A stretch of 64,000 nt of DNA from Novosphingobium sp. AAP83 (GTDB lineage: Bacteria > Pseudomonadota > Alphaproteobacteria > Sphingomonadales > Sphingomonadaceae): positions 310,001 to 374,000 of the forward strand of contig NZ_LJHY01000022.1 of NCBI RefSeq assembly GCF_001295795.1, read 5' to 3'. Below the pieces are notes generated by a model. It searched no databases and had not been told where the DNA came from. It saw only the letters and a program-made list of their open reading frames with translations. Position numbers and translations under genes: made by a program. The stretch's first letter is position 1; each line of letters opens with the position of its first letter. Shown in pieces: positions 34,303-42,394 of this stretch.

Positions 34303-35589
34303 GTGAGCGATAATAAGGCTTCTATGACCGCTGGCGGCAAGACCATCGAGATGCCCGTAAGCAGCGGAACAATCGGTCCTGATGTGATCGATATCCGCAA
34401 GCTCTATGCCCAGACGGGCATGTTCACTTACGATCCGGGCTTCACCTCGACGGCAAGCTGCGATTCCGCGATTACCTATATTGACGGTGACGAGGGTGTG
34501 CTGCTGCACCGCGGCTATCCGATCGGGCAACTGGCCGAACATTCATCTTTCATGGAAGTCAGCTACTTGTTGCTGAACGGTGAATTGCCAAGCTCGCAGG
34601 AATTGGCCGATTTCAGCCGCACGATCACACGCCACACGATGCTGCACGAGCAGCTTGCCACGTTCTACCGTGGCTTCCGCCGTGACGCCCACCCGATGGC
34701 AATCATGTGCGGCGTGGTCGGCGCGCTTTCAGCATTCTACCACGACAGCACCGACATTGCCGATCCAACGCATCGCAAAATCAGCTCGCACCGTCTGATC
34801 GCCAAGATGCCAACGATTGCTGCTATGGCTTACAAGTATTCGGTCGGTCAGCCTTTCGTCTATCCCGACAACAAGCTGTCGTACACCGGCAACTTCCTGA
34901 AGATGACCTTCGGCGTTCCGGCTGAAGAGTATGAAGTGATCCCGGCGGTTGAAAAGGCGATGGACCGCATTTTCACGCTTCACGCCGATCACGAACAGAA
35001 CGCTTCGACCTCGACTGTGCGCCTTGCCGGTTCGTCGGGCGCCAACCCGTTCGCTTGTATTGCGGCGGGCATCGCCTGCCTGTGGGGTCCGGCGCACGGC
35101 GGGGCAAACGAAGCAGCGCTCAACATGCTGAAGGAAATCGGCACGCCTGATCGCATCCAGCACTATATTGACCGCGCCAAGGACAAGAACGACCCGTTCC
35201 GTCTGATGGGCTTTGGCCATCGCGTTTACAAGAACTACGATCCCCGCGCCACGGTAATGCAATCCACGGTGCGTGAAGTGTTCGCGGCGCTTAACGTGCA
35301 AGATCCGCTGTTCGAAACTGCGCTGCGCCTTGAAGAAATCGCGCTGAGCGATCCTTACTTTGCGGAAAAGAAGCTGTTTCCGAACGTCGACTTCTATTCA
35401 GGCATCATCCTCTCAGCGATCGGCTTCCCGACCACGATGTTCACGGTGCTGTTCGCCCTTGCTCGCACTGTGGGCTGGGTGGCGCAATGGAACGAAATGA
35501 TTTCTGATCCAGGTCAGAAGATCGGCCGCCCACGCCAGCTTTACACCGGGCCGACCTCACGGGACTATGTGCCGTTGAGTGAGCGTTGA
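34303..35589 (+). CDS. gltA: Citrate synthase
   Basis: The 428-residue protein is a type II (hexameric, Gram-negative) citrate synthase with [14 protein letters not shown], the [11 protein letters not shown] active-site loop, and Gly-Phe-Gly-His-Arg-Val-Tyr. It condenses acetyl-CoA with oxaloacetate at the entry of the TCA cycle. The start is GTG with a strong AGGAGG about 9 bases before it. Confidence 0.98.
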
Positions 35590-35804: not shown

Positions 35805-37169
35805 TTAGCCTGATGCGATTTTCTGTGATGCACCATCAGCAGGCAAGCTGAGTATGAACTGAGCGCCGCCAGTTTCAGCAGACGTAACCGACAAGTCACC
35901 ACCCATCGCGCGCGCCAGCTTTCGCGAAATGTACAGGCCAAGCCCGCTGCCGCCATCGCCGCTACGTCCTAGCCTTTCAAACTTTTCAAAGACTTTTCCG
36001 GCTTGCTCGGCGGTCAGTCCTTCACCTTCATCTGTTACGGTCAGCCAAGTGAAGTGGCCCTCACCGCCTACGCGAATGCTTACGGTCGTATGGCCGGGCG
36101 TATAGCGGATCGCGTTGCTTATAAGATTGAGCAAAATCTGCAAAACGCGGCGGAATTCGCCAATCGCAGGTGCCCGCTCATCGGCTAAAGGTGTTGCAAT
36201 CACAATCCCGCGCTCTTGCGCACGCATGCCCAGAATCCCTGCCGCGCGGCGCGCGCAATCCGCCAGATCAATCTCATCTGGCGATGTATCAAAGCTTGCG
36301 TCCTCGACCGCTTCAAGATCGGAAAGATCCTCAACCAAGCCTAGAAGATGCCGCCCTGCCTCAGCTATGTCGCCGCCATAGTTTGCATATTGATCAGACA
36401 ATGGGCCAGCAAGGCGCATGCGAATCGTCTCCGCATTTGCGACAATCCGATTGATCGGCTGGCGCAAGGCTGGAGCAAGGTTGCGACCAAGCAATCCTTT
36501 GAAATCGGGTAATTTTATTGTTACCGCGGTATCGACAAAAGCTGGCGAATCTACAGTGTCGGCCACCAGCAGAAGCTCAAACCCTCCCGAACGCAGCGGC
36601 AGCAACCGCGAACGCCAAGTACGGACAGAGCCCGGCACATCCAGTTCAGCATCATCCAGCAACCGCCAATGCAGTGGCTGACGATGGGAACTACCCCGCA
36701 CAAGCACCAAATCCGTCCAATGACGGCCAAAGCCTTGGCGGAGGTTTTGTCCAAAATCGGCCAGATCACGGGCCTCGACCATGCCGGAGATAACACGCTG
36801 ATCAGCATCCAGGACCACATGAGCTTCGGCCAATTGCCGCAACAATGCCTCTGCCGCGCCGGTGTCTTCAGCCTTCCATGCATCTGCGGCCAGTTGCCAT
36901 TCCGTTATCTCAATGCTTGTGCCATCTTCCAAAGGCACCGCAAGTGCTCGAAACGAAACGGGCTGGCGATCATCTTCAAGCGTGAGTATGGCTGACAGTG
37001 CGACACCAGATGTCCGAACCTTTCGAACGAGTGCTAACAATCCTGGCAGTGCGATTGCGCCCGGGAAGCTGCCGCCCAGACGGACCTGCAACGCAGCAAG
37101 TGTTTCATCGGCCGCAATCAGCCGGTCATCGCGATCACATCGAGCGCGGATTGGCCCGGCAGCCGTCAC
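35805..37169 (-). CDS. Sensor histidine kinase-like protein lacking the phosphoacceptor His
   Basis: The 454-residue cytoplasmic protein has about 210 residues of PAS-like N-terminal sequence, a dimerisation helix, and a full HATPase domain: Leu-Leu-Asn-Leu-Ile-Ser-Asn-Ala-Ile-Arg-Tyr (N box), Asp-Glu-Gly-Glu-Gly (G1) and Gly-Ser-Gly-Leu-Gly-Leu (G2). In the H box, where family members read Ser-His-Glu-Leu-Arg-Thr-Pro, this protein reads Ala-Pro-Ala-Leu-Arg-Gln-Pro, with Pro233 (codon 36471-36473) in place of His. It can probably bind ATP but not autophosphorylate in the usual way. The start is GTG, 18 bases after the DUF2336 stop. It is last in a four-gene leftward cluster. Confidence 0.82.
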   Translation of the reverse strand: MTAAGPIRARCDRDDRLIAADETLAALQVRLGGSFPGAIALPGLLALVRKVRTSGVALSAILTLEDDRQPVSFRALAVPLEDGTSIEITEWQLAADAWKAEDTGAAEALLRQLAEAHVVLDADQRVISGMVEARDLADFGQNLRQGFGRHWTDLVLVRGSSHRQPLHWRLLDDAELDVPGSVRTWRSRLLPLRSGGFELLLVADTVDSPAFVDTAVTIKLPDFKGLLGRNLAPALRQPINRIVANAETIRMRLAGPLSDQYANYGGDIAEAGRHLLGLVEDLSDLEAVEDASFDTSPDEIDLADCARRAAGILGMRAQERGIVIATPLADERAPAIGEFRRVLQILLNLISNAIRYTPGHTTVSIRVGGEGHFTWLTVTDEGEGLTAEQAGKVFEKFERLGRSGDGGSGLGLYISRKLARAMGGDLSVTSAETGGAQFILSLPADGASQKIASG

Positions 37170-37187
37170 AGTTTGGATACCGGCATT

Positions 37188-38156
37188 TCAGGCGATAAAG
37201 CCAAATTGCGATTTGGCCAACAGCGCGGCCGCCTGTTCTGGACGCAGATCAGCAATATCCTCAGGCAATGTCACATCAGGATGAAGCGCGCAGAACGCGT
37301 CAATCAGTCCGTCTCTGCCCAAGCCGGATGATACCAGTGACAACGCAAGGCGGGGCATCTGGCTCTCCGTTGTACACATAATCGCCGTCTCACGTGGGAT
37401 ACCGGTGCCCAGCCCCAAGGCCGTCAGAAAGAAGGCGACGCCTGCATTCTGCAATGAAAGCATAGCATTCGGGTTAAAGCCGATGGACGAGACTGCATAG
37501 GCTAACAGATCAAGTCGGGACGCTGTTTCAGTACGGACTTTGCGCAGTGCCGCCTCAGCCACGTTTGATGCTGCAACGCTGGAAGGGTCACCTTCAACAT
37601 AACTGTGCATCGTCATGAGTACGATGTGATGCAAATCGCCCGGCAATTCCGCAAGCGGGATCTGCATGCGGCGAATGGCTTGGCCAAAGCGGGCTTGCGC
37701 GGCCAGCAAGTTCATCCCCCGAGCCGCCAGATCGTGATCCGGCGAAGCAATGATGTCTTGTAGCAATGGCGTCAGCACGGGATCTATGCCGACACGGCCA
37801 TGGAGCCTGTCAGCCAGTTGCCATTCAACCGCCGACATATGCAAGTGGTTGAGAAGAGCCTGATGGCCCGCCAGAAGATCGACCAATCCGGAGCCTGCTT
37901 CGCGTGCCCAGGACGCTGCGTCGATGTGCCCGGCAGCCTCCCCCAACGCCTGCACCAATTGCCGGGCGATATCGGCTAACATACCTCGGACCCGCGCAAT
38001 AACCTCGTCGCTGAAGATGGAACTATCGTCATTGCGCAACAAATGGCGCAGGATCGGCCCCATGTGGACCATAACCTGATCGGCATGTAACAAGTCATCT
38101 TGCAGCAACCTCTCGATTGCTGCGTTGTCGCTTTGGGTGTTTGCGCTCGATGCCAT
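37188..38156 (-). CDS. DUF2336 domain protein
   Basis: The 322-residue, all-helical, soluble protein matches alphaproteobacterial DUF2336 proteins, whose repeats resemble HEAT-type helical pairs and which often neighbour signalling genes. Features seen are a helix-rich N-terminal region, a central Ala-Leu-Arg-Lys-Val-Arg-Thr-Glu-Thr segment, and a C-terminus with Asp-Ala-Phe-Cys-Ala-Leu-His-Pro. It sits 9 bases after the membrane protein at 38166 and upstream of the kinase-like gene, suggesting a shared pathway. Its biochemical role is unknown. Confidence 0.75.
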   Translation of the reverse strand: MASSANTQSDNAAIERLLQDDLLHADQVMVHMGPILRHLLRNDDSSIFSDEVIARVRGMLADIARQLVQALGEAAGHIDAASWAREAGSGLVDLLAGHQALLNHLHMSAVEWQLADRLHGRVGIDPVLTPLLQDIIASPDHDLAARGMNLLAAQARFGQAIRRMQIPLAELPGDLHHIVLMTMHSYVEGDPSSVAASNVAEAALRKVRTETASRLDLLAYAVSSIGFNPNAMLSLQNAGVAFFLTALGLGTGIPRETAIMCTTESQMPRLALSLVSSGLGRDGLIDAFCALHPDVTLPEDIADLRPEQAAALLAKSQFGFIA

Positions 38157-38165
38157 TCACAACCC

Positions 38166-39431
38166 TTAACCCCGAGTGGTTAACTGCGGGTTAGGCGAAC
38201 CCTTTGATGGTGCATGAAACCTGCGTTCATTTTGGGCGGATTGCAACGAGAGTAAACACGTACCGATCAAAGCAATCACCGCCAAGCAGATCGTGGAATC
38301 AAAAGGCAAGAAAGCACTGCTTAAAGCCAGCCCAAAACCAACAACTATGCGGTCTTCAAACCAGTGAGGCCAGCGACTGTCCGGCAATGCTAGCGGCAAA
38401 AGCCGTAGCGCAAAAATCAGCAAAATCGGCGCGAACGCTGGCAGGCCCCAAGGCGACTGTGGCAGCTCACTGCGCCAAGTGGCCAGGATGATAAAACCTG
38501 CGTCAATCAGCCAATGAAAAACATGGGCACTGCGCCGTGCAAAACCCGATGCCAGCAACGAATCGCGTTCAACCTGCGCAAGCAAGCTCGCGACGCGTTC
38601 GATCAACCAGCCAACCCCCAAAAGCAGAAATCCCAAGGCATAGTTGCCTAACCAGCCAACCCCGCCGCCGAGCAAACCGATCAAGCCGGCAGCAAGGGCA
38701 ACCAGAGCTGGACGCGTTCCAGCATGAAGCAGCGCCGGCCCGAACCTGCGCACAACAGCGATAGCAGAAGATTTGCCCAGCGAACCCGGCCCGATATCAG
38801 CGCTGGCCGTATGCAAGCGAAGCCAGCGCCGTTCGGTTTCATGGGCATCGGCCTCGCTTTGCACGATACTCCATCGACCATCTTCAAGGAGCGAAGCTGG
38901 CATGCCGCGCTGGGGAAGTCGGGCTTGGGTAGCCAGACGCAAAAGCGCTGACTGGACGTTCCATTCAGGCGGCAAATCTGCAAGGGCTGCGGCCATCCGA
39001 CCCGGAAAACGCATTGCTGCTGCAAACGCGTGGTTAATGTCGATCCGCTCAAACCCCAGCGGCAGCGCCAATTCCACAGGGAGTGTCAGCAAGACTGGCC
39101 CGGCCTCCAGGTGCTCGCACAGGGCATCAGGCATTGCCAACAAACCATCACCCAACACAAAGACATCATCTTCGGGGTGGATCAACGTCACCAAGGCGCG
39201 GGCCGTGGCCAGAACATGAAACTGCGCCTGCCCAGCCTCGACAATATGTTGCAACGCAACCAGTTCACCGCTGAGGCCTTCAGCCATGACCACGATACGT
39301 TTGCAGCCCAAAGACAGCGCGAAACCGATCTGATGGCGCAGCACCGATCGCCCACCAATTGGCAGGTATCCACGCAGCCTGCCCGGATCAGCTCCAGCGG
39401 CCTCAATCAACGATAACAATGCGACCCGCAA
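38166..39431 (-). CDS. Nucleotidyltransferase-like protein fused to a degenerate CDP-alcohol-transferase-like membrane domain
   Basis: The 421-residue protein has a soluble N-terminal half resembling GT-A-type nucleotidyltransferases: Leu-Pro-Ile-Gly-Gly-Arg-Ser-Val-Leu at 23-31 and Val-Leu-Gly-Asp-Gly at 92-96. The C-terminal half has about six membrane helices. The layout recalls bifunctional inositol-phosphate cytidylyltransferase/phosphatidyltransferases, but the expected Asp-Gly-X2-Ala-Arg...Gly...Asp motif is replaced around residues 277-300 (Ile-Glu-Arg-Val-Ala-Ser-Leu-Leu), so transferase activity is doubtful. The start is TTG with GGAGG 9 bases upstream. The fold assignment is inference. 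Confidence 0.6.
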   Translation of the reverse strand: MRVALLSLIEAAGADPGRLRGYLPIGGRSVLRHQIGFALSLGCKRIVVMAEGLSGELVALQHIVEAGQAQFHVLATARALVTLIHPEDDVFVLGDGLLAMPDALCEHLEAGPVLLTLPVELALPLGFERIDINHAFAAAMRFPGRMAAALADLPPEWNVQSALLRLATQARLPQRGMPASLLEDGRWSIVQSEADAHETERRWLRLHTASADIGPGSLGKSSAIAVVRRFGPALLHAGTRPALVALAAGLIGLLGGGVGWLGNYALGFLLLGVGWLIERVASLLAQVERDSLLASGFARRSAHVFHWLIDAGFIILATWRSELPQSPWGLPAFAPILLIFALRLLPLALPDSRWPHWFEDRIVVGFGLALSSAFLPFDSTICLAVIALIGTCLLSLQSAQNERRFHAPSKGSPNPQLTTRG

Positions 39432-39538
39432 AAAGCTCTGCCTCCGATGAAGCCATCGTAGGGGCTGGGACGCCTGCTGCCAAGCATGCCAATGGAAATC
39501 TGCAGAGGTTAACGCACTTTAAATCAGGTTAGGCCCAA

Positions 39539-39844
39539 TCAGGGCTGTACGGTCAAATCCTGAAGCATCTGGTGCAAACGGCGCAAAACGGCGCGATCGC
39601 CTGGCACGGTATCCAGCGCTTCCTCCGCTAGCGCCAACAATCCATCGGCATGGAAGCTAGCGGCAAGCCCCTTCAATCGCATTGCTGCGACTTGCCAATT
39701 ACCATCGCAGCGGGACCGTCCCAGCAAGTCGATCTGCCGCTCGGCGCTTTCGATAAATGCGGCACGCAATTCTCTGATCAGCTCCGGATCGTAACCCGCC
39801 GCAGCAGCAAGATTCGCGTCTAAAGATCCACCTTCATAGGCCAT
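39539..39844 (-). CDS. Hpt-like protein lacking the phosphoacceptor His
   Basis: The 101-residue helical protein resembles an Hpt domain: helices with Glu-Leu-Arg-Ala-Ala-Phe-Ile-Glu-Ser-Ala, then Ala-Ala-Met-Arg-Leu-Lys-Gly-Leu-Ala-Ala-Ser-Phe, then Leu-Ala-Glu-Glu-Ala. Hpt proteins carry His at the position before Arg-Leu-Lys-Gly; here it is Met55 (codon 39680-39682). It lies 107 bases upstream of the nucleotidyltransferase-like gene and is divergent from the coiled-coil protein with 72 bases between. Together with the His-less kinase this suggests structural rather than phosphotransfer signalling. Confidence 0.7.
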   Translation of the reverse strand: MAYEGGSLDANLAAAAGYDPELIRELRAAFIESAERQIDLLGRSRCDGNWQVAAMRLKGLAASFHADGLLALAEEALDTVPGDRAVLRRLHQMLQDLTVQP

Positions 39845-39916
39845 ACAAATGCGCTACGGGCCGAAGTGTTAAGGTGGGGTTTAAAACTTGGATGAAATTG
39901 TGATAGTCTTCGCAAC

Positions 39917-42394
39917 ATGAGCGGGGGAACACGGATAATTCCGATCGATGGCGCCGAACAGGACGCTGGCCATGCCGAGGCATATGCCGACACCGTTTTT
40001 GACGGGGAGGCTGCTGCATCTTGGGATGTTGAGGATGATGTTATTGAGCATCAGCAGCGCAAAGATCGCAGCTGGATCTTGCCTTCTTTGGCCGCGACAA
40101 TGATCGCCGGTTGGACGGGCTTCTTTGCGTGGTCCGTCATCCTGCCTTCAGACAGCAAATATGTTCCCGAGCAATGGGTGCCTTGGATATCGCAATGGGC
40201 AGTTCCTGTGGTGCTCGTGCTGCTGGCCCTGCTGCTCATGATGCGCACCAGTAAACGTGAAGCAGGGCGGTTTGTTGAAGTTTCGCTTTCTTTGGCTCGT
40301 GAGTCTGCCGATCTCGAAAAGCGGCTTCTCAGCATCAATACCGAACTCTCCCTCGCGCGCGATTTCATCGCTGCGCAAAGCCGTGATCTCGAATCGCTGG
40401 GCCGTATCGCCGTTGATCGGTTATCAGGTAGCGCCGCCAAGCTGGAGGAGCTTTTCACGTTCAACCGACAGCGCGTGGATCAAATCAGCGATGTTTCGGC
40501 AAGCGCTTTGGAAAACATGGAAAAGCTGCGCGGGCAGCTTCCGGTAATCGCCAATTCGGCCAAGGATGTGACCAATAGCATCGGCAACGCGGGGCGAACG
40601 GCGCATTTGCAGCTTGAAGAAATGGTATCCGGCTTCCAACGGCTTAATGACTTCGGCCTTGCGAGTGAGCGGCAGGTCACAACCGTGCGTGAGCGTGTCC
40701 AAGCTTCGCTCGATCAATTTGCGCGGGCAAGCGAAGATCTCGCAAAAGTCGCCGAGGGCAGGTTTGAGGCTATATCAGCGCAAAGCACCGATCATGCAGC
40801 AGCTATGGCGCGAACCGAACAGGCTGCGCTGGTAGCGTGGCGCGAGCGGACTGACGCACATGCGGCTACGTTGCGTGCTACTCTGGCACAACTTGGTGAG
40901 GAGCATGAGGCGCTGCTCACAGCATCCGCAGAACGTCTGGCCCAGTTCGAGGAAACCGCCACTTCGGTTACCGCCATGCTTGAAGGACAAGCGCGCGATC
41001 TTGATGAGCATCTTGCTGACCGTCGCGCCGCAACAGAGGTTGCTGCGGCTGAGCAACAAAGTGCCCTTGATCAACGCTTGGACGCAATTGACAGCGCCAT
41101 TGCGCAACGCCGCTCTGTGATGGAACAAGCCACTACCGAAGCAACCGGGGCACTTGTTGCAAGATTGGCCGAGGTTGACCAAACCATTGAGGCTCAACGC
41201 AAAAAGCAGGTGGCTGAAATTGCCAAGCTTGCCAATACCTGTGACGAAATAAGCAATAAGGTCAATAGCTTGTCGGTCGCTCTTCGTAGCTCTGGCGAAG
41301 AGGGAGGCAAAGCGGTTGGAGCCGTTGAGAAATCCATTGCCGATATCAACGCCATGCTCGCAGATATGCGGCGTGCGGTTGCTGGCACGGATTCACAGAT
41401 CGAGACTTTGACAGATTCTGCGGTCCGCCTGCTTGAGATCATACAGGCCGGTAGTGATCATACCCGCACGCAAATGCCGGAGGCGCTGCGCAGTACAGAA
41501 GCAGGCCTTCAGGGGCTGGAAAATCGTGTGTTCACGTTGCGTGATACCTTGCGTGAAGCAGGTGACGGTGGACGTCTCCTGTCCGAAACTGTCGGCGGTG
41601 TGCAAGGCAAAGTCTCTAAAACACTCAAAGATTTGCAAAATGCGCAATCAAGTTTGGCTGAGGCTAGGCAGGATAGCGCCGCTCTTTCGGAACAGATCGA
41701 ACAGCGGCTCAGTGGCGCTATTGCAAGTCTTTCAGATGCAATGGGCAAAACCAGCACAGATTTGCGCGTCAATACCGCAGCAGAGATTGAGGCATTGGCA
41801 GAGCATCTTGGCGAGGAAAGCAGCGCAGCCATCAGCCGCGTTCTTCAAGGCAGGGCGGCTGAACTGGTCGGGCGACTGGAGCAAGCGATTGATGCTGCCG
41901 CCTCCTCAAGCCGTGAAACTGCCATCCAGATGCGCGACCAGTTGACCCTGGTTGACGAACTTGCCGGCAATCTGGAAGCCCGCGTAAGCCGGGCACGCGA
42001 ACGGGCAGAGGAGCAAGTGGACAATGATTTTGCCCGCCGCGCCGCGCTCATCACGGATTCCTTGAACTCGACGTCCATCGATATTGCAAAGGCGCTGTCA
42101 TCAGACGTTTCGGAAACATCATGGGCGTCTTATTTGCGCGGGGATCGCGGCATCTTCACACGCCGTGCCGTTACGCTACTGGATACTGCGGAAGCTAAGA
42201 CAGTGCAGGCCCATTATGAGGCAGAGAGTGAATTTCGTGAACATGTGAATCGCTACATTCACGACTTTGAAGCGATGTTGCGCCAGTTGCTTTCCACACG
42301 CGATGGCAACGCGCTGGGCGTTACCCTTCTATCGTCAGACATGGGCAAGCTTTACATTGCGCTGGCACAAGGGATCGAGCGGCTGCGGACCTGA
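39917..42394 (+). CDS. Large membrane-anchored coiled-coil protein
   Basis: The 825-residue protein has an acidic cytoplasmic head of about 50 residues, two transmembrane helices (about 54-76 and 92-109), and then about 600 residues of Ala/Glu/Gln/Arg-rich heptad sequence to residue 720, with no enzymatic motif. A short C-terminal segment rich in aromatic residues follows (Ser-Trp-Ala-Ser-Tyr-Leu-Arg). Such proteins are often annotated as ATPases or apolipoprotein-like on coiled-coil matches alone; I see no Walker motif. The topology recalls scaffold or chemoreceptor-like cytoplasmic rods. It is divergent from the His-less Hpt gene and is likely connected with that cluster. Confidence 0.75.
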   Translation: MSGGTRIIPIDGAEQDAGHAEAYADTVFDGEAAASWDVEDDVIEHQQRKDRSWILPSLAATMIAGWTGFFAWSVILPSDSKYVPEQWVPWISQWAVPVVLVLLALLLMMRTSKREAGRFVEVSLSLARESADLEKRLLSINTELSLARDFIAAQSRDLESLGRIAVDRLSGSAAKLEELFTFNRQRVDQISDVSASALENMEKLRGQLPVIANSAKDVTNSIGNAGRTAHLQLEEMVSGFQRLNDFGLASERQVTTVRERVQASLDQFARASEDLAKVAEGRFEAISAQSTDHAAAMARTEQAALVAWRERTDAHAATLRATLAQLGEEHEALLTASAERLAQFEETATSVTAMLEGQARDLDEHLADRRAATEVAAAEQQSALDQRLDAIDSAIAQRRSVMEQATTEATGALVARLAEVDQTIEAQRKKQVAEIAKLANTCDEISNKVNSLSVALRSSGEEGGKAVGAVEKSIADINAMLADMRRAVAGTDSQIETLTDSAVRLLEIIQAGSDHTRTQMPEALRSTEAGLQGLENRVFTLRDTLREAGDGGRLLSETVGGVQGKVSKTLKDLQNAQSSLAEARQDSAALSEQIEQRLSGAIASLSDAMGKTSTDLRVNTAAEIEALAEHLGEESSAAISRVLQGRAAELVGRLEQAIDAAASSSRETAIQMRDQLTLVDELAGNLEARVSRARERAEEQVDNDFARRAALITDSLNSTSIDIAKALSSDVSETSWASYLRGDRGIFTRRAVTLLDTAEAKTVQAHYEAESEFREHVNRYIHDFEAMLRQLLSTRDGNALGVTLLSSDMGKLYIALAQGIERLRT

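Follow-up and report, generated by a model that had tools for sequence, protein, structure and literature searches.

The stretch of DNA analysed here (the window) comprises 64,000 nt of Novosphingobium sp. AAP83 (NZ_LJHY01000022.1, positions 310,001–374,000 of the forward strand), and coordinates below are window positions. In this member of the Sphingomonadaceae, a large family with members from soil and water, we describe a block of five genes. The leftmost encodes a pseudo-histidine kinase (HK) of 454 aa (35805–37169, reverse strand), in which the HisKA fold lacks its phospho-acceptor and the ATP-binding domain is present. Three genes on the same strand follow: a diverged DUF2336-family protein of 322 aa (37188–38156), a pseudo-enzyme of 421 aa (38166–39431) and a pseudo-Hpt of 101 aa (39539–39844), the last belonging to the four-helix Hpt family but without its His. 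The pseudo-enzyme has the two-domain fold of IPCT-DIPPS, a nucleotidyltransferase-like domain joined to a CDP-alcohol phosphotransferase-like membrane domain. A divergent intergenic stretch of 72 bases (39845–39916) separates the Hpt-like gene from the fifth gene (39917–42394, forward strand), whose product is a membrane-anchored coiled-coil protein of 825 aa and a short member of the GPR/RgsE family. All five reading frames, which an earlier reading of the bare sequence (the original prediction) had called intact, are open and lie where it placed them.

The coiled-coil protein and the GPR/RgsE family

The description of the fifth product as a giant membrane coiled coil is borne out. Within its 825 aa two N-terminal hydrophobic stretches were seen in the hydropathy profile, with peaks from residues 58 and 87–95, the first being weak (1.62 vs a limit of 1.6). 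Its last 135 aa (41987–42391, forward strand) form a conserved C-terminal domain that is common to RgsE. A profile of this domain scored 86.4 bits against residues 1971–2088 of a 2089-aa protein of Sinorhizobium meliloti, and direct tblastn with the coiled coil gave E 1e-14 and 40% over 112 aa. The S. meliloti record is labelled pSymB (3.7 Mb), and the gene is annotated as 'kinesin'. PMC7327166 gives 2089 aa as the length of RgsE, and by length and homology the S. meliloti protein is identified as RgsE; its locus tag differs. As described in two reports, RgsE is a GPR homologue that lies at the growing pole and is required for normal rod shape (PMC7327166), and GPR and RgsE are both anchored in the membrane by two helices, mostly cytoplasmic, polar and required for rod shape (PMC8262873, PMC7327166). 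Homologues of RgsE were reported in Rhizobiales, Emcibacterales and Rhodospirillales, the main text being silent on Sphingomonadales (PMC7327166). The C-terminal kinship of the coiled coil with RgsE of the GPR polar-growth family is new. Because the coiled coil belongs to this family, the idea of a role in envelope organisation, raised in the original prediction, gains weight.

The C-terminal domain is widespread: a profile search found it in 147 of 149 genomes of the family, 182 of 196 in a sample of the order and 101 of 289 in a sample of the class. Searching a plasmid collection with the window coiled coil (tblastn) returned six records, one from Sphingomonas and five from Rhizobiaceae. A PDB sequence search with the domain gave nothing credible (best E 0.23), and its AlphaFold 2 (AF2) model was poor (pLDDT 57) and was left unused. 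The coiled coil of locus L175 was considered as the GPR of Agrobacterium and rejected; it comes from a Rhodospirillaceae metagenome-assembled genome and lacks the Pro-rich stretch of GPR, and the equal length (2115 aa) is coincidental.

Conservation of the block

A search with the DUF2336-like protein gave matches in 67 of the 149 family genomes, its own included. Stretches fetched around these matches provided 66 relatives, which, being selected by that match, give no measure of how frequent the block is. The HK, DUF2336-like and coiled-coil genes are present in 66/66 relatives with an identical strand pattern, the enzyme-like gene in 62/66, the Hpt in 56/66, and all five together in 52/66. 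The expected co-occurrence of the five genes thus holds for the HK, DUF2336-like and coiled-coil genes, while the Hpt and the enzyme-like gene are sometimes lost. In addition, 80 further loci were collected, including 12 at class level (L175–L186); wherever both genes occur among these 80, the Hpt is divergent from the coiled-coil gene (44/44). An example is Sphingomonas parapaucimobilis YK209 (NZ_CP155749.1, 594426–600822), where the block is annotated as a sensor kinase, two hypothetical proteins, an Hpt and a hypothetical protein; by eye, Arg stands at the H-box position and Leu at the Hpt position.

The DUF2336 label stands by way of relatives. The window protein itself falls below PF10098 and gave no Pfam match to it. 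Nevertheless, PF10098 is matched by orthologues from loci with the same gene arrangement (L153, E 3.6e-25; L154, E 7.1e-30), and the window group aligns with group A7 in a profile comparison (hhalign, 98.5%, E 1.7e-15), where 3/5 of the A7 rows match PF10098. A PDB profile search with the DUF2336-like family found no credible relative.

Loss of active residues

The window HK matches HATPase_c (E 5.6e-25) and HisKA (E 2.8e-6) in Pfam. In the PDB alignment its N-L-A-P lies opposite N-M-S-H, so that the H-box His of active kinases corresponds to Pro233 (codon 36471–36473, reverse strand). Orthologues agree with the proposal of a kinase without its His: of 67 kinases, that of the window included, 65 have Pro at the position, one Ala and one Ser, and none has His (0/67). 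In a wider set it is non-His in 87/88 (Pro 68, Ala 7, Arg 4, Gln 2, and seven further residues once each, among them the single His). The residue after it is Val/Ala in place of Glu/Asp. The ATP site is kept, with N348, N352, D380, G382, F394, G407, G409 and G411 each in 67/67 and G384 in 65/67, and the N, G1, F and G2 motifs of HATPase_c are retained in the window HK. The DHp helices past the H-box are also strongly conserved (GPL..Y..YA.DI..AG.HLL), and His274 is invariant (67/67). ATP is probably still bound by the HK, which may therefore serve as a conformational switch. No particular kinship with DivJ or DivL is claimed, as many kinase families score alike.

The Hpt-like protein likewise lacks its His, as had been noted. 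Met55 (codon 39680–39682, reverse strand) stands at the His column, and the match to Pfam Hpt (PF01627) is weak and below cut-off (E 0.0015, 19.2 bits vs 24.6). In 57 Hpts this column holds Met (22), Gln (18), Leu (13) and Gly, Ser, Ala or Glu (1 each), with His in 0/57, while R45, D47, W50, R56 and F64 are invariant and the RCD.NW motif is kept. Taken together, the residue counts of the Hpt and the HK indicate that the active position has drifted, whereas the remaining positions are conserved. The wider derived set agrees, with 79/80 Hpts lacking His and replacements that include Met, Gln, Leu and Trp. A PDB profile search with the family found no credible relative.

Related loci outside the derived set carry an Hpt with His in the same place. 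The Hpt-like family aligns with the His-bearing Hpts of sister families in a profile comparison (96.3%, E 1.7e-9), with place and orientation being the same. In the sister families, an Hpt adjoins the coiled-coil gene in 15/19 loci, with His in 15/15; in early-branching loci of the family itself it is found in 4/13, all with His. The gene next to the RgsE-like gene of S. meliloti is likewise a divergent Hpt with His (EAHRLKG). Shinella and a second Sinorhizobium show the same arrangement, which makes 3/3 of the Rhizobiaceae loci read, from the five records found. Among the 12 class-level loci, two, both of one family, have a His-bearing Hpt by the coiled-coil gene, and in L183 (4926–12514) a hybrid kinase that carries two receivers and ends in an Hpt lies directly upstream of a 1630-aa coiled-coil relative. 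Genomes hold few Hpt matches (0 to 11 in 14 genomes), and therefore the repeated Hpt neighbour is unlikely to arise by chance, which is an estimate and not a formal test.

Another neighbour was observed in loci L167–L174, L216–L224, L226, L161, L164 and L187. There a receiver-domain protein adjoins the coiled-coil gene, with Asn at the place of the phospho-Asp in 21/21, and after this Asn receiver protein comes a second, Hpt-like neighbour with a AHDMKGQGGTFG-type motif, in addition to the first Hpt-like protein.

The window enzyme-like protein gave no Pfam or NCBIfam match. Its label as a nucleotidyltransferase/CDP-alcohol-transferase relative without the motif is instead upheld by relatives and structure. 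The family profile matches PDB 4mnd (IPCT-DIPPS, E 4.1e-5), and 4mnd is also the top structural match over both domains for the AF2 model (pLDDT 90.4), with a Foldseek E of 2.8e-9 and a Z of 22.6 at a root-mean-square deviation of 4.9 over 363 residues. The CDP-alcohol motif (DGxxAR...G...D...D) was not found in the window protein; it is complete in 5/101 copies and absent in 96/101. The nucleotidyltransferase loop is degraded. The five copies that keep the motif, as DGVDGKLAR, lie in early-branching loci among the 80 further ones (L147, L151, L157, L160, L210). These loci also hold an inositol-phosphate synthase, an IPCT-like nucleotidyltransferase and a second CDP-alcohol transferase, looking like an undescribed cluster of inositol-lipid type. 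The last part of the motif has a non-canonical spacing in the five, so that the transferase is likely, though not certainly, active there. No inositol-phosphate synthase was found in the loci of the 96 motif-less copies; L164 is a case in point, with the motif absent and the synthase not found. A Wzi-like gene was seen in L151, L157, L160 and L210 (not in L147), and DUF2336 matches in L151 and L210.

Timing and selection

A tree of the coiled-coil gene (135 tips, 736 columns; a gene tree, not a species tree) was built with the 12 class-level loci left out. On it the Hpt His takes 2 changes vs 18.3 on average after shuffling (minimum 14 in 300), the transferase motif 2 vs 4.9 (minimum 4) and HK presence 12 vs 38.9. 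All 88 HK-bearing tips fall within one derived clade of 103, where all five genes occur in 67 tips and the motif is absent in 94/94 enzyme-like copies. Support of its node is weak in FastTree (0.28); in IQ-TREE a clade of 104 tips, to which L151 (a motif keeper) is added, reaches 95.2 SH-aLRT. Read from the sequences on this tree, the clade into which the pseudo-kinase came is also the one in which two other proteins turned into pseudo-proteins, each of them about once: a formerly active Hpt and what was likely an inositol-lipid enzyme. The direction of change is shown for both because residue-intact relatives sit at the base of the tree and in the sister families, and for both, decay starting from an active form has good support. 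The kinase seems to have entered the clade already without His, and an intact, His-bearing ancestor was not found at this locus. Parallel catalytic loss, as the original prediction had it, is supported, with polarity for two of the three proteins.

NG86 dN/dS in up to 14 pairs was 0.07–0.22 for the HK, 0.04–0.19 for the Hpt, 0.08–0.36 for the DUF2336-like gene, 0.14–0.40 for the enzyme-like gene and 0.09–0.27 for the coiled coil, with 0.02–0.11 for citrate synthase; these ratios are rough, many dS values being above 1 and five values not computable. By this measure the block genes are under purifying selection. Nearly all orthologues lack the catalytic residues, so the loss is no oddity of one strain, and the orthologues together with the rough ratios led us to reject a strain-specific decay.

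The genes gltX-gltA at the flank are also kept. The citrate synthase gene (gltA; 34303–35589, forward strand) neighbours the block in 63/66 relatives. In Caulobacter the citrate synthase CitA takes part in the cell cycle independently of its activity, according to PMC7083601; a link between the neighbour seen here and a CitA-like role is speculation by analogy.

Discussion

The linkage of the genes, the pattern of their residues and the kinship with a polar protein that has been studied lead us to a reading to which we give about an even chance: the locus would encode a scaffold of the GPR/RgsE family with non-catalytic adaptors, former signalling and lipid enzymes, serving a polar or envelope function. 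Former enzymes and relay proteins that lost their active residues and yet stay under selection suggest that they now act by binding and not by catalysis, and binding or scaffolding is how we would explain their retention. The sequences show that the Hpt gene is an old divergent neighbour of the scaffold gene and that, in most Sphingomonadaceae, its product lost the His, a kinase-like protein joined whose ATP site is intact but which has no phospho-acceptor, and a membrane transferase of inositol-phosphate type lost its active site. In the simplest account, binding functions around a scaffold of GPR type would have taken the place of phosphotransfer and lipid synthesis at the locus. The pseudo-kinase may change shape with ATP/ADP or with a signal at its N-terminus. 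Along with the Hpt bundle, the membrane pseudo-transferase and the DUF2336 protein, it could then bind the scaffold or clients of the scaffold, and such binding would set the place or the time at which envelope growth is organised, with a pole as the probable site and no phosphotransfer involved.

Several observations weigh against this account. The coiled coil is 825 aa vs about 2,100 in RgsE and GPR, and its score to the apolipoprotein family PF01442 is far below the cut-off (19.4 vs 90 bits); it is therefore called a domain-sharing relative and not a full GPR. No Hpt-bearing gene was found by the coiled-coil gene in 9/12 class-level loci, nor in five loci of Rhodospirillaceae type, two of which are possibly shared with the 12. 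The composition of the block also varies, as the Hpt was not found in 10/66 relatives, the enzyme-like gene was not found in 4/66, and 15/103 derived tips have no HK at the locus. Furthermore, one derived Hpt (L190, 6732–7031) has His among His-less relatives, either by retention or by reversal, and the HK of L154 has His at the H-box column, though without a HisKA match. In L162 (2775–4433) and L193 (2896–4533), where a pseudo-Hpt and the coiled coil are present, an unrelated-looking kinase with an intact H-box lies nearby. These two are among six weak kinase matches (20–124 bits; also L166, L183, L207 and L215) that were treated as unrelated neighbours, five having an intact H-box.

Alternatively, the pseudo-kinase and pseudo-Hpt may act on a working phosphorelay elsewhere, as DivL acts on CckA, for instance by sequestering a response regulator or by forming hetero-dimers with an active kinase, with the scaffold only placing them. 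We consider this unlikely but the strongest of the rivals. DivL is described as a pseudokinase controlling CckA in PMC7200025, the PDB matches of the HK include DivL (4q20), and the conserved DHp helices resemble those of active alphaproteobacterial kinases, so that docking surfaces may be intact; yet no receiver or active kinase lies at the window locus, and the closest paralogue of the HK in this genome shares just 33% identity. A clearly smaller probability is given to conserved neighbours with separate jobs, the block being held together by a shared promoter region and by slow rearrangement near gltX-gltA. That gltX-gltA is kept as well (gltA in 63/66) and that single genes are lost in some lineages would fit. 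However, the linkage of Hpt and coiled coil persists in sister families and Rhizobiaceae without gltX-gltA seen beside it, and the state changes of the Hpt, the enzyme-like protein and the HK fall in one region of the tree.

Activity by another route is improbable. Here the kinase would phosphorylate a different residue such as His274, whose invariance beside an intact ATP site is suggestive, or the enzyme-like protein would bind a nucleotide and use it in a new way; but His274 falls within the second DHp helix, in a region probably retained by active kinases of this type as well, and Val/Ala instead of Glu/Asp follows the H-box position. Simple decay of an old phosphorelay locus, which could account for the several missing active residues and for gene loss in some genomes, has hardly any credence left. 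It is contradicted by the frames, on whose intactness in the window the original prediction had already relied and which are open in the aligned copies, by the positions kept outside the active site, such as RCD.NW in the Hpt and the ATP motifs in the HK, and by dN/dS well below 1, rough as the ratios are.

Preferring the scaffold with non-catalytic adaptors, we also put forward a broader and more tentative proposal, which we think will rather fail than hold. A dedicated divergent Hpt would run scaffolds of GPR/RgsE type across Alphaproteobacteria, and the Sphingomonadaceae would have swapped this phosphorelay for a phosphate-free switch of pseudo-kinase and pseudo-Hpt gated by ATP, with the inositol-lipid synthase turned into a structural membrane part. 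If true, the receiver with Asn for Asp at the same place in sister families makes the loss of a phospho-acceptor a repeated theme at the scaffold. A growth-pole scaffold family, the regulation of which is little known, is tied by these findings to phosphorelay proteins across Alphaproteobacteria. The locus also offers a natural experiment, one gene place being occupied by an active Hpt in sister lineages and by an inactive Hpt with a pseudo-kinase here. Candidates that can be tested are, in Sinorhizobium, the Hpt next to rgsE and, in Sphingomonadaceae, the block with the pseudo-kinase. The hybrid kinase RdsA of Rhizobium etli is needed for cell shape, and no Hpt gene was found near it, according to PMC9022086; that the Hpt beside rgsE is a partner of RdsA is a speculation. 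Literature searches on polar growth in sphingomonads or Zymomonas and on RgsE with Hpt found no report of this locus, and searches on 'growth pole ring' with Sphingomonas and on DUF2336 found nothing, subscription papers being largely outside their coverage.

Among known systems, the closest is GPR of Agrobacterium and RgsE of Sinorhizobium, with which the locus shares the C-terminal domain, two N-terminal membrane helices, a long helical middle and a divergent Hpt. It differs in the length of the scaffold (825 aa vs 2,089–2,115), in an Hpt without His and in the added pseudo-kinase, DUF2336 protein and pseudo-transferase; any polar role here would be putative. The enzyme-like protein resembles IPCT-DIPPS, the inositol-phosphate cytidylyltransferase/phosphotransferase of Archaeoglobus (4mnd), in its two-domain fold over the full length and, through early-branching relatives, in the DGxDGxxAR motif and the adjoining inositol-phosphate synthase; in contrast, most copies are without the CDP-alcohol motif and have a degraded nucleotidyltransferase loop. 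The pseudo-Hpt is likened to Hpt proteins (PF01627) by its profile match to those of the sister families, whereas the His is replaced in the window type. DivL-type pseudokinases of Alphaproteobacteria, finally, have a kinase architecture without the His phospho-acceptor that is conserved over a lineage, as the HK has. DivL has Tyr at this position, while the HK has mostly Pro and is linked to a GPR-type scaffold; any tie to the CtrA pathway would be conjectural.

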